DNA from: an uncultured Saprospiraceae bacterium
GTDB taxonomy: Bacteria > Bacteroidota > Bacteroidia > Chitinophagales > Saprospiraceae
DNA length: 42,524 bases
Direction: 5' to 3'
Assembly: GCA_937961455.1 (NCBI GenBank)
Contig: CALGNN010000161.1
Span: 1 to 42,524, forward strand
Shown here: positions 2,453 to 7,531 of the stretch, one piece after another
Layout of the letters: every line of letters starts with the position of its first letter
How positions within the stretch are numbered: position 1 is the first letter of the stretch
Notes under the pieces: generated by a model
Told to the model about the DNA's origin: nothing
The model's input: only the letters and a program-made list of their open reading frames with translations
Database searches by the model: none
Position numbers and translations under genes: made by a program

Positions 2453-3849
2453 GGTGTTTCCTTTCTATTAACAATTTGTGCTATAAGCTCTCCTTCTGAA
2501 ACGAGTTTACTTCCCACATATGCTGTCCCATACATGTGACAAATTCCTCTTCGTACCGGTGATAACAGCTTCATCTTTATTATTAACGTATCTCCTGGCA
2601 ATACCTTATGTTTAAACTTGGTATTATCAATTTTTATAAAATACGTATCCCAGTTTTCTGGGTCTGGTTTTTCATGTAAAACAAAGATACCTCCTGTTTG
2701 AGCCATAGCTTCTACTTGTAAGACGCCTGGGAAGACTGGATTGTTGGGAAAGTGTCCTTGAAAAAAATATTCACCAAAAGTTATATTCTTTATTCCAACC
2801 ACATGTTCACTAGAAATTTCCACTATTTTATCCACTAGAAGAAATGGAAAACGATGTGGAATTAATTTTGAAATATCATTGGTATTATAAATAGCTTCCT
2901 TATCAGGATCATAAACAGGAACTCCTTTGGTTTTTCTTTGCTCAAGCAAAAGGGTCTTTAGTTTTTTGGCAAATCTAATATTGGCTGAATGTCCCGGTTT
3001 CTTTGCAATAATTTTTCCTTGAATCTCAACACCTAACAAACTTAAATCTCCAATCAGATCAAGAATCTTATGCCTAGCTGGTTCATTATTGAAAAGCAAA
3101 TTTTGATCGTTGAGAATTCTTCCTTCAGAAAGATTAACATTTTGGTGGCCTAATAATTCTGCCATTTGATCTAGATCTGCTTGACTTAACTCTTCGTCTG
3201 CTACAACAATTGCATTGTCCAAACTTCCACCTTTCACTAGATTCGCTTCATGAAGTTTTTTCAACTCACTGAATAATACAAATGTTCTGCTTGGCGCAAT
3301 TTCGCTTGCATAATCCACACCTTGGTGAAATTCTGCAAATTGATTACCAGGGTATAAATTGTTGTAGTTTAATAAAACCGTTATTTGAAAATCATCTGAA
3401 GGACTCACAATATACTCAGCACCCGTTTCTTCATCAATGTGTGTAAAAGACTTGCGTATAAGGAGTCTTTCTTTTTTATCCTTTAGTTCAACAATCCCTG
3501 CTTCTTGAATCTTTTCAACAAATAACTTGGCACTACCATCAAGGATGGGAATCTCATTTCCTTCGATATGAATAAGCACATTATCAACATGCAAACCTCT
3601 GAGTGCGGATAATAAATGTTCTACGGTATATACCTTATCATCTTCTAAAGCCAGACAAGTACATCGACTTGTATCTGATACCTTTCCAAGATCTGTTGGC
3701 CAAGAACGCTTAGTGCTGTCTTCTGACTTAATTTGAATCCTTATCCCGTGTCCCGCATCTGCTGGACTCAAAGTGATTTTTGAATGTGTCCCAGTATGAA
3801 GTCCAATGCCTTCAAACGCTACCTCTTTACCCAATGTCTTCTGTAACAT
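2449..3849 (-). CDS. lpxC-fabZ: Bifunctional UDP-3-O-acyl-GlcNAc deacetylase / 3-hydroxyacyl-ACP dehydratase (LpxC-FabZ fusion)
   Basis: Two enzymes in one 466 aa chain. Residues 1 to about 305 are LpxC, the zinc-dependent committed deacetylase of lipid A synthesis. His78 (in VEHLL), His260 and Asp264 (in ARHKILDLIGD) are the zinc ligands, and His287 (in PGHSAN) is the catalytic-site His. Residues 315-466 are FabZ, the hot-dog-fold dehydratase of fatty acid elongation, with His366 in GHFPNNPVFPG and Glu380 in LQVEAMAQTGG. The fusion is well known in Bacteroidota and couples hydroxyacyl-ACP use between lipid A and phospholipid synthesis. The start shares one base with the lpxD stop (TAATG) and the end overlaps the lpxA start. 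Confidence 0.97.
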   Translation of the reverse strand: MLQKTLGKEVAFEGIGLHTGTHSKITLSPADAGHGIRIQIKSEDSTKRSWPTDLGKVSDTSRCTCLALEDDKVYTVEHLLSALRGLHVDNVLIHIEGNEIPILDGSAKLFVEKIQEAGIVELKDKKERLLIRKSFTHIDEETGAEYIVSPSDDFQITVLLNYNNLYPGNQFAEFHQGVDYASEIAPSRTFVLFSELKKLHEANLVKGGSLDNAIVVADEELSQADLDQMAELLGHQNVNLSEGRILNDQNLLFNNEPARHKILDLIGDLSLLGVEIQGKIIAKKPGHSANIRFAKKLKTLLLEQRKTKGVPVYDPDKEAIYNTNDISKLIPHRFPFLLVDKIVEISSEHVVGIKNITFGEYFFQGHFPNNPVFPGVLQVEAMAQTGGIFVLHEKPDPENWDTYFIKIDNTKFKHKVLPGDTLIIKMKLLSPVRRGICHMYGTAYVGSKLVSEGELIAQIVNRKETP

Positions 3850-4877
3850 TATTGATTATTATCTTTTAATTGTTTTTCTAAGTTATGAATTCTTTTTGCC
3901 AAGTCAGGGAGTTGTTTAAAAATGGCATAAGCCTTTAAATAACTCGTATAATCTATGGCAGGCGAACCAAACATTTTTCTACCATCTTCAAGGTCTGACA
4001 TGATACCACTTTGTGCTTGAATCTGCACTCCAGTACCGGTCTTTATGTGGCCTCGAAACCCTGCTTGCCCTCCAATCATATTAGCCTTTCCAATCTTAAC
4101 ACTTCCCGCTATTCCAGTTTGAGCTGCAATAACGGTATTTTCTCCAATTGTTACATTATGTGCGATCTGAATTAGATTATCTAATTTAACTCCCTTGTGG
4201 ATAATCGTAGATCCTAATGTAGCACGATCAATCACTGTAGAAGCACCTATCTCGACATGATCTTCAATCACCACATTACCAATTTGATCAATTTTAGTCA
4301 ATTTACCCTCTTTCATAGCAAAACCAAATCCATCGCTTCCAATGACACAATTCGAATGTATGGTCACATGGTCACCAATGATACAATCTCTGTAGATTCT
4401 AACTCCAGGGTAAATGGTACAATTCGAACCGATTTGCACACCATTTCCAATGTAACAAGAAGGATATATTTTACTCCCATTTCCAATTGAACTGCCTTTG
4501 CCGATAAAATTCAATGCGCCAATTTTAGCATCTGATGAAACCATAGCTTCATCCGACACAACGGCACTTTCGTGAATCCCATCATCTAGTTGCTCTTCAC
4601 TGTTATATAGATTAAGCACTTTGGCAAAACTCTCGTAGCTGTTTTCGACGATAATATAACTACAAGGTATTTCCGATTTTAAGTCTAAATCTTTAGAGAT
4701 TAATACCAATGAGGCGCTAGTATTGTACAGATATTTTTCATATTGAAGATTTGAAAGAAAACTGACACCACCTTCAAATCCTTCTTCAATTTTACAAGGA
4801 CCTGTAATTGCTAACTTAGGGTCACCATGTAAAACGCCATCTACAATCTTGTTGATTTCATCTGCTGTAATAGCCAT
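3849..4877 (-). CDS. lpxD: UDP-3-O-(3-hydroxyacyl)glucosamine N-acyltransferase LpxD
   Basis: Third step of lipid A synthesis: N-acylation of UDP-3-O-acyl-GlcN using hydroxyacyl-ACP. At 342 aa it is full length. It has an N-terminal uridine-binding domain (about 1-100), a left-handed beta-helix of hexapeptide repeats (about 105-300, for example IGNGSK, IGSNCT, IGDHVT) and a C-terminal helix (about 315-342). The catalytic His is His240 in IAHNVTIGENT. It is the first gene of the operon lpxD, lpxC-fabZ, lpxA, ABC ATPase. The ATG follows a TAAATTTG promoter-like box by only four bases. Confidence 0.97.
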   Translation of the reverse strand: MAITADEINKIVDGVLHGDPKLAITGPCKIEEGFEGGVSFLSNLQYEKYLYNTSASLVLISKDLDLKSEIPCSYIIVENSYESFAKVLNLYNSEEQLDDGIHESAVVSDEAMVSSDAKIGALNFIGKGSSIGNGSKIYPSCYIGNGVQIGSNCTIYPGVRIYRDCIIGDHVTIHSNCVIGSDGFGFAMKEGKLTKIDQIGNVVIEDHVEIGASTVIDRATLGSTIIHKGVKLDNLIQIAHNVTIGENTVIAAQTGIAGSVKIGKANMIGGQAGFRGHIKTGTGVQIQAQSGIMSDLEDGRKMFGSPAIDYTSYLKAYAIFKQLPDLAKRIHNLEKQLKDNNQ

Positions 4878-4881
4878 GCTG

Positions 4882-4889
4882 CAAATTTA
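4882..4889 (-). promoter_or_regulatory. Candidate Bacteroidota -7 element for the lpxD operon
   Basis: On the minus strand this reads TAAATTTG, an exact match to the Bacteroidota -7 consensus TAnnTTTG. Only CAGC separates it from the lpxD ATG, so if used the transcript would begin at or next to the start codon. No clear -33 TTG is seen at the usual distance. A chance match is possible in AT-rich DNA. Confidence 0.35.
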
Positions 4890-5018
4890 GTTAATATACC
4901 CTTAAACGAAGAATGAATAAAAGAATGTGTGCGAGTAGTTCAGTTCTGTTTAAAATAGTTCAATTAGTCAATAGGAATTATCATATTAGCATATAAACTA
5001 AATGATATTAAAGATTGT

Positions 5019-5603
5019 ATGTACTTAATTTTTAGTTCTTCAGCATTAGGCACTCCGAAAAAATGGAATGCTGCCGCCACTGATAGTTTTAATTGGCCTA
5101 GGCTCCTGCGACTTTCTTGGATCGTTCTTAATGCAGAATGTAAGCCTATTGCTCAAAAAGATTATATCATCAAACCTGAAGGATTTGAGATTCCGATTGA
5201 GCAAGAACGTATTACAGGAATTGATTATGAAGATGCTAGAGAAAATGGACATGAATTAAGCATGGTTTTAAGGGAGTTTAGTGATGCTATCAACGCTGCA
5301 GAATATATATTCTCCTTCAATTTAAGACTCCACGAAAATGTCGTTGCTGCAGAATTCTTTAGAAAAAATATCCAGCATGCCTTGTTGAGCTCAGAAAAAT
5401 ATTGCTTAATGATGGAAACAACCTACCTCTGCAAGATCCCTGGAAAAGACGGAAAATATAAATGGCCAAGCTTACCAGAATTGTATGGCTTACTATTCAA
5501 CAAAAAACTTATCAAAGCTAAGAATGCAAAAATTGCCACAAATGCAACCGCAGTATGCTTTGTCAAATTGTTGAAAACGAATAGCCTTGATGATATATTC
5601 TAG
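5019..5603 (+). CDS. Catalytically dead DnaQ-like 3'-5' exonuclease-fold protein
   Basis: The 194 aa chain aligns along its length with the Bacteroidota exonuclease family whose active members start with an FDTETTGLP-type motif. The flanking family signatures are kept: NWPR (25-28), a YIIKPEGFEIP-type strand (49-59), ENVVAAEF (106-113) and KWPSLPELY (148-156). Every catalytic position is changed: the DTE triad reads S6-S7-S8, the HNxxFD motif reads FNLRLH with His105 in place of Asp, and the final AHxAxxD motif reads AKNAKIA with Lys168 and Ala173 replacing His and Asp. The reading frame is intact and ends 8 bases before the next gene, so it is probably expressed and co-transcribed. The likely role is nucleic-acid or protein binding without cleavage (inference). 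Confidence 0.8.
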   Translation: MYLIFSSSALGTPKKWNAAATDSFNWPRLLRLSWIVLNAECKPIAQKDYIIKPEGFEIPIEQERITGIDYEDARENGHELSMVLREFSDAINAAEYIFSFNLRLHENVVAAEFFRKNIQHALLSSEKYCLMMETTYLCKIPGKDGKYKWPSLPELYGLLFNKKLIKAKNAKIATNATAVCFVKLLKTNSLDDIF

Positions 5604-5611
5604 CTAATACT

Positions 5612-7531
5612 ATGGCTAAACAAAAGAAGCTAAAGAAGAAGATGGTATCTAAAAAATCCCTTCCTTGGATTCCTATCTGGAAATCTAAGGAACGATTGCT
5701 TCTAGCCCTTCTTGCAATGATCATAGGATTTGCCGTTTTTTATAACTGCCTTTCGTTTGATTTTGTTAATTGGGATGATCCTAAAAATATTCAAGACAAT
5801 GTCAACTTGAGATCTTTTGATGCAAAAAATATTAAAGGCATTTTCACCAGTACTGTAATCGGAAATTACAATCCACTCACCATCTTAAGTTTTGCTATAG
5901 AAAAACATCTTTTCGGTTTAAATCCGAAAGTATTTCATCTCAACAATATCTTGCTTCATTGCCTCATTATTTTTTTGGTGTATTGCATGTTTTCACTAAT
6001 GGGATTAAAACCCGTGGCTGCTTTATTTGGTGCTGCATTATTTGCCATTCATCCAATGAGATCTGAATCAGTAGCGTGGATTACTGAGCGTAAGGATGTT
6101 TTATTTGGGGTCTTTTATTTTGCTGCCTTAGTTAATTATCTGAAATACATTCTAAGTAAAAAGAAGAGACGTTTTCTGATCTATGCATTTCTACTTTTTA
6201 TTCCTGCACTATTTTCTAAAATACAAGCGGTATCGCTGCCCCTTTCGATGTTGGCCATTGACTATTTATATAAAAGAAAATTTGACCAAAAACTCTGGTT
6301 GGAAAAACTGCCCTTTTTCATCGGATCTTTAGTTGTCGGAATCCTCGGTTTTATCCTTTTGAAAGATCATGGCTCTTTAAGTCCCTCAGGAACAAGGTTC
6401 CATTTTTTAGATAGACTTTTTATTGGTGGATACAGTTATGTTATATACTTAGTAAAGGCTGTAGTTCCCTTCCAAATGTCACCCTTATATCCATACCCAC
6501 CTGAAATACCTTTAAAAATTTATGCCTTGGGAGGATTGGCTTTAAGCTTCTTCCCTATTTGTTGGTTTCTCTGGAAAAAAAATATGAGTACGATCTTATT
6601 TGGTTTACTCTTCTTCACAGTGAATGTAATGTTCATGTTGCAGATTGTAGGAGCTGGTCAAGGTTTTCTTGCTGATAGATTTACTTATGTTGGCTACTTC
6701 GGATTGTTTTTTATTGTGGCCTATTATTTCGATAAGATCCCATTAGAAGGGGCAAAAAAAATCATCAAATATATTGCAATGTCTGGAGTGATTGCAGTCT
6801 ATGCTTTTTTGTGTTTTAGACAAAATCAAATTTGGAAAAACAGCGACACACTCTGGACACATGTCATAAAGTACTATCCCAATACAAAAACCCCTTGGAG
6901 AAATCGGGCAAATTATTTTAGAGATCAAAAGAAAATGCCGGAAGCACTCAGAGACTATAGTGAAGCAATTCGATTAGCCCCAAGCGATGATGGCATCCTT
7001 ACCAGCAGAGGAAAATTATATTTTAATACTCAAGAATTTGATAAAGCCCTTACCGACTATACAAAGGCCATTGAATTGGTACCGGGAAAAGGAGAATATT
7101 GGATCAACAGAGGTGCCGTCTATGCTGTGACCCGCAGACCTAATGAGGCCTTAAATGACTTAAGCAAGGGACTAAGTTTGGATCCTGAATTTGCAACTGG
7201 ATACCTCAACCGATCAATTGTATACCAACAAGTTGGTGAATTTGAAAAATCGCTCTCTGACATTATCAGCTACCTTCGCATCAATCCATACAATGCTGAA
7301 CTATGGTACCAAAGAGGCAAGTTAGAGTTGAGATTAGCTAATCCTGAAGCAGCCTTAACAAGCATTAATAAAGCTCTTTCCATATCTGCCAATAATAGCG
7401 ACTATTATCTTGAAAGGTCGAAAGCATTTTATGAAACCAATCAAAGGCAAGCTGCTCAAAATGACCTTAGAAAAGCCCGTTCCTTAGGTAATAAATCAGA
7501 GCCCAACTTAGAGCAACTGTTTTCTCAATAA
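5612..7531 (+). CDS. Multi-pass GT-C glycosyltransferase-like protein with C-terminal TPR domain (TMTC-like)
   Basis: 639 aa inner-membrane protein. A lysine-rich cytoplasmic N-terminus precedes the first membrane span (about 28-48). The first periplasmic loop carries NWDDPKNI with Asp55-Asp56, the acidic pair expected in the PMT/TMTC-type GT-C active site, and then GNYNPLTILS. About ten hydrophobic segments follow to about residue 410, with the recurrent HPMRSESVAWITERKDVLFG signature after one of them. Residues about 425-639 form roughly six tetratricopeptide repeats. The family uses polyprenyl-phosphate sugars to modify exported proteins; the substrate here is unknown. It is the second gene of a likely operon with the dead exonuclease-fold protein 8 bases upstream. 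Confidence 0.85.
   Translation: MAKQKKLKKKMVSKKSLPWIPIWKSKERLLLALLAMIIGFAVFYNCLSFDFVNWDDPKNIQDNVNLRSFDAKNIKGIFTSTVIGNYNPLTILSFAIEKHLFGLNPKVFHLNNILLHCLIIFLVYCMFSLMGLKPVAALFGAALFAIHPMRSESVAWITERKDVLFGVFYFAALVNYLKYILSKKKRRFLIYAFLLFIPALFSKIQAVSLPLSMLAIDYLYKRKFDQKLWLEKLPFFIGSLVVGILGFILLKDHGSLSPSGTRFHFLDRLFIGGYSYVIYLVKAVVPFQMSPLYPYPPEIPLKIYALGGLALSFFPICWFLWKKNMSTILFGLLFFTVNVMFMLQIVGAGQGFLADRFTYVGYFGLFFIVAYYFDKIPLEGAKKIIKYIAMSGVIAVYAFLCFRQNQIWKNSDTLWTHVIKYYPNTKTPWRNRANYFRDQKKMPEALRDYSEAIRLAPSDDGILTSRGKLYFNTQEFDKALTDYTKAIELVPGKGEYWINRGAVYAVTRRPNEALNDLSKGLSLDPEFATGYLNRSIVYQQVGEFEKSLSDIISYLRINPYNAELWYQRGKLELRLANPEAALTSINKALSISANNSDYYLERSKAFYETNQRQAAQNDLRKARSLGNKSEPNLEQLFSQ

Follow-up and report, generated by a model that had tools for sequence, protein, structure and literature searches.

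The window, a stretch of 42,524 nucleotides from an uncultured Saprospiraceae bacterium, carries an intact gene (exo) whose product is predicted to have the fold of a DnaQ/DEDDh exonuclease and has lost all five catalytic residues. The protein is the extreme member of a family-wide series and not an isolated oddity, and sequence comparisons indicate that in the relatives measured the inactive form is held by strong purifying selection. On balance, we favour the view that it is a non-cutting pseudo-exonuclease adaptor that docks via its C-terminal tip, with a nucleic-acid 3' end as the most likely candidate ligand.

The gene starts with ATG, encodes 194 aa and has a single terminal stop (Table 1). 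A stop-free run of 194 random codons at the base composition of the window has P = 1.1e-6, and the open frame is therefore unlikely to have survived by chance. Aligned with 20 homologues that keep the complete catalytic set (DEDHD), the window protein has S6, S8, H105, K168 and A173 in the catalytic columns; DxE, the Asp of HNxxFD and HxxxxD are each absent, and the His of the 'HN' motif is also gone (Phe100). This alignment bears out the original prediction, made from the DNA letters, of an intact frame with the catalytic set replaced at SSS, His105, Lys168 and Ala173. The family framework named there is kept as well: three residues of NWPR and four of KWPSLPELY are at least 95% conserved in 72 other rows, and ENVVAAEF forms residues 106-113 of the protein. 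We could rule out that the catalytic residues have been shifted to other positions, since a list of all acids of the window protein has none at 1-21 or 155-190, around motifs I and III, and E106, which adjoins His105, occurs widely in active as well as inactive relatives.

Table 1. Positions of exo, its motifs and its neighbours in the window
Feature	Position	Strand	Basis
Pseudo-exonuclease gene, DnaQ/DEDDh fold, 194 aa	5019..5603	+	frame, alignment, predicted structure
Former DxE motif, now Ser-Ser-Ser, codons 6-8	5034..5042	+	alignment
Former Asp of HNxxFD, now His, codon 105	5331..5333	+	alignment
Former His...Asp motif, now Lys168 ... Ala173, codons 168-173	5520..5537	+	alignment
Framework motif NWPR, residues 25-28	5091..5102	+	W26, P27, R28 conserved at 95% or more over 72 other rows
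Framework motif KWPSLPELY, residues 148-156	5460..5486	+	K148, W149, P150, L152 conserved at 95% or more over 72 other rows
Candidate docking tail SLDDIF at the C-terminal tip, residues 189-194	5583..5600	+	loose post hoc pattern
lpxD, divergent neighbour, locus anchor in many relatives	3849..4877	-	
141-base gap from lpxD to exo; hemC lies here in many relatives	4878..5018	.	
TPR membrane protein, recurrent neighbour, with hemD between in several relatives	5612..7531	+	Pfam TPR families

Pfam gave no family for the window protein at E 1, PF00929 (RNase_T) included; PF00929 matched 34 of the 73 rows of our alignment A1 at E 0.01. The NCBIfam model for DNA polymerase III epsilon matched the window protein at E 6e-4, far below its cut-off, and a DNA polymerase exonuclease subunit of PHROGs matched at E 1e-4. 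A PDB sequence search with the single window protein had no match at E 1, and a search with the profile of A1 retrieved one PolC-type and one DnaQ chain. With an alignment of the window protein and 62 of 80 named loci (A3) as input, AlphaFold2 produced a model (pLDDT 95.3, pTM 0.90) that is a DnaQ/DEDDh domain over its whole length, in line with the fold originally proposed. Its best PDB match is the DnaQ domain 8h18 (Foldseek E 4.3e-9; VIA Z 21.3, rmsd 2.1 over 169 residues), and together with 9qpc (the exonuclease portion of a polymerase), E. coli epsilon and DinG it makes up the top structural matches, with Z of 19.5-21.3. For epsilon (2gui, Z 19.9), residues 1-186 match 7-180.

Among the active relatives at about 40% identity are free-standing proteins some 190 aa long, as well as the N-terminal domain of frames of 1400-1560 aa; both fused frames tested were DNA polymerase III alpha and carried RNase_T at residues 3-182, which argues for a parent family of the proofreading type. 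A DnaE1-exonuclease fusion of Bacteroidetes is described in the literature (PMC3919608). The window protein shares its predicted fold with the DnaQ/DEDDh exonucleases (RNase_T, epsilon and the DnaE N-terminal domain), whose active members among the homologues have NWPR, HN and KWP in common, but it differs from them in the absence of all five catalytic residues and in going unrecognised by PF00929. Two DEDHD-intact homologues, at L102:5053-6456 (-) and L099:345-1742 (+), have about 280 extra N-terminal residues, with Cys-rich repeats in L099.

We searched 150 Saprospiraceae genomes at E 0.001 and found homologues in 76, the window's own counted. The other 74 had no homologue at this threshold, so the family can do without exo. 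After exclusion of G106 (two fragments) from all alignments, the window protein and 75 sequences from 74 other genomes (two from G047) gave an alignment of 76 rows; G066 and G136 were left out of the 74-row tree, and these two and G107 out of A1 and the conservation and locus counts made on it. The search for named loci used the best 80 of 584 relatives, several of which are the same contigs as in the genome set. At columns 6/8/105/168/173, the full DEDHD set is present in 20 of the 76 rows, only D6 and D173 in 44, and none of the five in 3; the remaining rows keep one (2 rows), three (4 rows) or four residues (3 rows), three of these rows being partial or distant. The class with two Asp residues mostly reads D-S-N-N/G-D (Ser8, Asn105), and the rows with total loss are the window (SSHKA), G007 (QSSNN) and G077 (HNAFC). 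Masking the catalytic columns before tree building gives 4 changes for Asp6 and 3 for Asp173, which indicates that complete loss was separate in the window, G007 and G077.

The tree of 74 rows has a clade of 48 rows that contains inactive proteins only (support 97/99); the split is weaker with the catalytic columns masked (61/84, G100 crossing over), and losses occur also outside the clade, in G073, G077, G067, G105, G122 and G101. Orthologues sharing the catalytic loss, named originally as a check, thus exist. Most of the loss is common to relatives: by the alignment, most inactive relatives have also lost Glu8, Asp105 and His168, and the part specific to the window protein is the additional loss of Asp6 and Asp173.

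Of the columns at least 90% conserved in the 72 other rows, 24 are non-catalytic, and all 24 are unchanged in the window protein; the two catalytic ones are both lost (Fisher P 0.003). The window's genus holds one genome, and selection was measured on relatives. Between inactive copies dN/dS was 0.012 (G002/L115) and 0.05 (G017/L134), rough values given a dS of 1.4-1.5, from the only two inactive pairs unsaturated at synonymous sites. These values are far from neutral, and together with the shared loss and the restriction of lost near-invariant columns to the catalytic ones they agree with the selection for a non-catalytic role that had been suggested. Twelve inactive pairs, which share genomes, have both genes; the conservation of exo exceeds that of LpxC-FabZ in 9 of them (for G051/G149, 84% identity for exo vs 62% for LpxC-FabZ) and falls below that of LpxC in 3 (G007/G116, G009/G117 and G087/G111). 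In the window genome, exo has a mean identity of 0.418 and LpxC one of 0.498; their ratio lies within the range of relatives, and by this comparison the window exo is not more divergent than its LpxC predicts. Long exo branches in some HemC-less genomes hinted at a faster evolution of exo where HemC is lost; this was rejected, as identities relative to LpxC do not separate such genomes.

In relatives, lpxA, lpxC-fabZ and lpxD commonly occupy the minus strand and are followed by hemC, exo, hemD and the gene for a TPR protein or recN. Of the 54 inactive rows, 40 have a same-strand hemC at most 1.2 kb upstream, compared with 3 of 19 intact rows (Fisher P 1.7e-5, which is only a guide because the rows are related), and hemD lies at most 0.6 kb downstream in 30/54 vs 3/19. 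The window locus has neither gene, and its exo stop is 8 bases from the start of a gene whose product matches TPR families as its Pfam families above cut-off. Such a TPR gene is directly downstream of exo in nine neighbourhood rows, the window included, with hemD between in none of them. The closeness of the TPR gene in the window is hence due to the missing hemC and hemD. The partnership with this gene, read originally as GT-C/TPR and coupled to exo 8 bases away, did not hold up: exo lies mostly between hemC and hemD in relatives and adjoins the TPR gene only in the absence of hemD, and we dismissed the TPR gene as a primary partner because its position is an effect of hemD loss. DEDHD-intact rows also occur at the hemC-hemD place (G048, G016 and G034), and on an unrooted tree these three rows suggest that exo entered the heme cluster before losing activity. 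An intact exonuclease immediately precedes a gene for a HemD-like protein of 535-542 aa in L129 (8738-10342), L139 and L164; the L129 protein is a fusion of HEM4 and a Ppx/GppA phosphatase domain.

We then consider the heme genes. The window genome (4.6 Mb, 96% complete) gave no match in profile searches for HemB, HemC (PF01379), our pseudo-HemC model or ferrochelatase, and it has COX1; the same searches in 14 control genomes matched HemC in 11, HemB in 11 and ferrochelatase in 8. The organism is likely a heme auxotroph. Exo-bearing genomes were surveyed for HemB, HemC and HEM4 (76 genomes) and for ferrochelatase and COX1 (22 genomes). HemB and ferrochelatase were both missing from 16 of the 22, the window's included, and 15 of these 16 have COX1. 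In nine of the 16 heme-less genomes the HemC beside exo is degenerate (pseudo-HemC), and in the other seven, among them the window's and two that are 83% and 92% complete, exo occurs without any HemC match. Two further pseudo-HemCs, for a total of 11, are in G079 (Portibacter marinus) and G123, two genomes that encode intact HemC, HemB and ferrochelatase at other places. HEM4 was matched in 76 of 76 genomes, via a second HemD-like paralogue of about 260 aa (e.g. G000:C127:19300-19905) that is present also where heme synthesis is absent; by these matches, HEM4 presence does not track heme synthesis.

A further alignment (A4) took in all 22 listed HemC frames. With slightly loosened patterns, all 11 pseudo-HemCs have lost GTRGS, HSxKD, SxRR, RGNVPTR and GGC, catalytic motifs present in 32 or 33 of 33 intact HemCs, and all 11 retain TNxER. 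Their frames are intact, and Pfam recognises 6 of the 11. The Portibacter pseudo-HemC was modelled with pLDDT 87.5, and its best PDB matches are porphobilinogen deaminases (E 1.1e-14). Pseudo-HemC evolves fast (26-66% identity in pairs with exo at 63-89%) and on a quick lpx tree its distribution takes 7 changes, of which starred branches force at least 4. The gap to exo is at most 19 nt in 11/11 (median 2), vs a median of 26 for the 30 of 33 intact HemCs whose gap is below 400 nt (Mann-Whitney P 0.0008). The loci are L114:7230-8000, L039:4302-5069 (both of the same genome) and nine others. A twelfth pseudo-HemC, of G098, lies at L108:161-964 (-), and the 160 bases between it and the contig end contain no exo start; the exo of this genome is intact and at another place, which speaks against strict pairing. 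A hydroxyphenylpyruvate-dioxygenase-like gene (Glyoxalase families) lies immediately upstream of this pseudo-HemC, and a TPR membrane protein is encoded close by. Our data suggest that heme synthesis was lost and then regained in G123, G079 and G098. Intact hem genes are found away from the degenerate HemC at G123:C65, G079:C22/C53 and G098:C43, and a single 524-aa frame of G098 carries the matches to hemC as well as hemD.

What could a DEDDh protein do that cannot cut? According to the adaptor reading, a proofreading-type domain would have kept its fold and framework and lost the residues for two metal ions. The retained cleft would hold a nucleic-acid end, which is favoured by the fact that the kept framework is that of active enzymes, and the acidic-aromatic C-terminal tip would dock to a protein partner. 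Docking is favoured by a loose tip pattern, picked after seeing the sequences, that 45 of the 54 inactive rows have, compared with 4 of the 19 intact ones. In relatives HemC would be the most likely operon partner; the window protein would work without HemC. The observed basis consists of the shared loss, the predicted fold, the intact frame, the purifying selection on inactive relatives and the conserved locus, from which we infer the order of the residue losses and an action by binding.

The gene order in relatives also fits a complex of the exo protein with HemC, in which exo would regulate or scaffold HemC and HemC would be only a structural partner once heme synthesis is lost. The persistence of pseudo-HemC beside exo in nine of 16 heme-less genomes and in G079 and G123, its repeated origin, the TNxER kept by all 11, the HemC-like model of the Portibacter protein and the tight gaps to exo are consistent with such a complex. 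We regard it as possible but doubtful: exo is present and HemC was not found in seven of the 16 heme-less genomes, including the window's, the fast change of pseudo-HemC means that it is not the source of the constraint on exo, the G098 pseudo-HemC has no adjoining exo start, and the tight gaps equally fit mere translational coupling. A module of two pseudoenzymes, with dead exonuclease and HemC in a complex whose function is unrelated to heme, HemC stripped but kept as a scaffold, and exo alone in a few lineages, appears rather unlikely to us. The presence of the N-terminal domain of DNA polymerase III alpha among the active relatives points in another direction, to a dead proofreading-like subunit related to Pol III epsilon that would bind clamp, SSB or polymerase. 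E. coli epsilon has its clamp motif QTSMAF at 182-187, followed by a linker at 190-212 (PMC4478557), and the tip NSLDDIF of the window protein is at the equivalent place but lacks the Gln; the protein ends 8 residues past its last long helix, without the alpha-binding segment that follows the clamp motif in epsilon. PolA2 has been proposed to bind the clamp via a vestigial exonuclease domain (PMC12926913). We nevertheless judge this alternative unlikely, as no homologue was found in half of the family genomes and G000 has three other RNase_T proteins, one of which is a better epsilon candidate, with a 275-aa frame whose kind turned up in many of the 32 genomes searched.

Residual or altered catalysis with one metal, via D6 and D173, could explain the unusually uniform pattern of the 44 rows that keep exactly these two residues. 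It cannot apply to the window, G007 and G077, where both Asp residues are lost, and E8, D105 and H168 are gone in the two-Asp class itself, making it quite improbable. Finally, the long branch of the window protein (0.88 and 0.82 in two trees), the loss of every catalytic residue and the missing HemB, HemC and ferrochelatase matches could indicate a decaying gene that is heading for loss in a heme auxotroph. The open frame, the 24 of 24 conserved non-catalytic columns, an LpxC that is divergent too with a normal exo/LpxC ratio, and the strong selection on the measured inactive relatives render decay highly improbable.

With its predicted fold, its lost catalytic set and the selection on the inactive form in relatives, the window protein would fit the DEDD-origin pseudonucleases. 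The fold of Dis3/RNase II is unrelated to the DEDDh exonuclease fold. Dis3/RNase II pseudonucleases of fungi are alike in that inactive nucleases have repeatedly been kept as RNA-binding proteins (PMC8097288). Exuperantia is an RNA-binding pseudonuclease of insects and differs in its added SAM-like domain and its arthropod origin, RNA binding of the bacterial protein being putative (PMC5597691). The Maelstrom domain is similar in having a DnaQ-H fold with the DEDHD residues lost, but it has its own conserved EHHCHC set, and the window family has no new Cys/His set (PMC2628886). A switch to a Cys/His active site of this kind was rejected, as C129 and C138 are conserved at 90% or more across the full set of active and inactive rows. 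The PolA2/APEX proteins of Actinobacteria also retain a bacterial inactive DnaQ-like domain, for which clamp binding is proposed, but there it is a domain of a polymerase and of the DEDDy type, whereas the window protein is stand-alone and DEDDh (PMC12926913).

The published DEDD-derived pseudonucleases that we found are thus animal proteins or vestigial domains within bacterial polymerases, and the literature matches listed include no stand-alone bacterial one. Nor did we find literature linking Saprospiraceae, hemC and exonuclease, or mention of an exonuclease in literature on the hemC/hemD gene order in Bacteroidetes. The exo family is a stand-alone bacterial series, largely at one locus, whose living members still show steps on the way from DEDHD to complete loss. 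In addition, a neighbouring metabolic enzyme became a pseudoenzyme in heme-less genomes. The series allows one to ask what use there is for an exonuclease fold that cannot cut, and why genomes without heme synthesis retain a dead HemC. Portibacter marinus 10MBP4-2-1 carries both a dead exonuclease and a pseudo-HemC.
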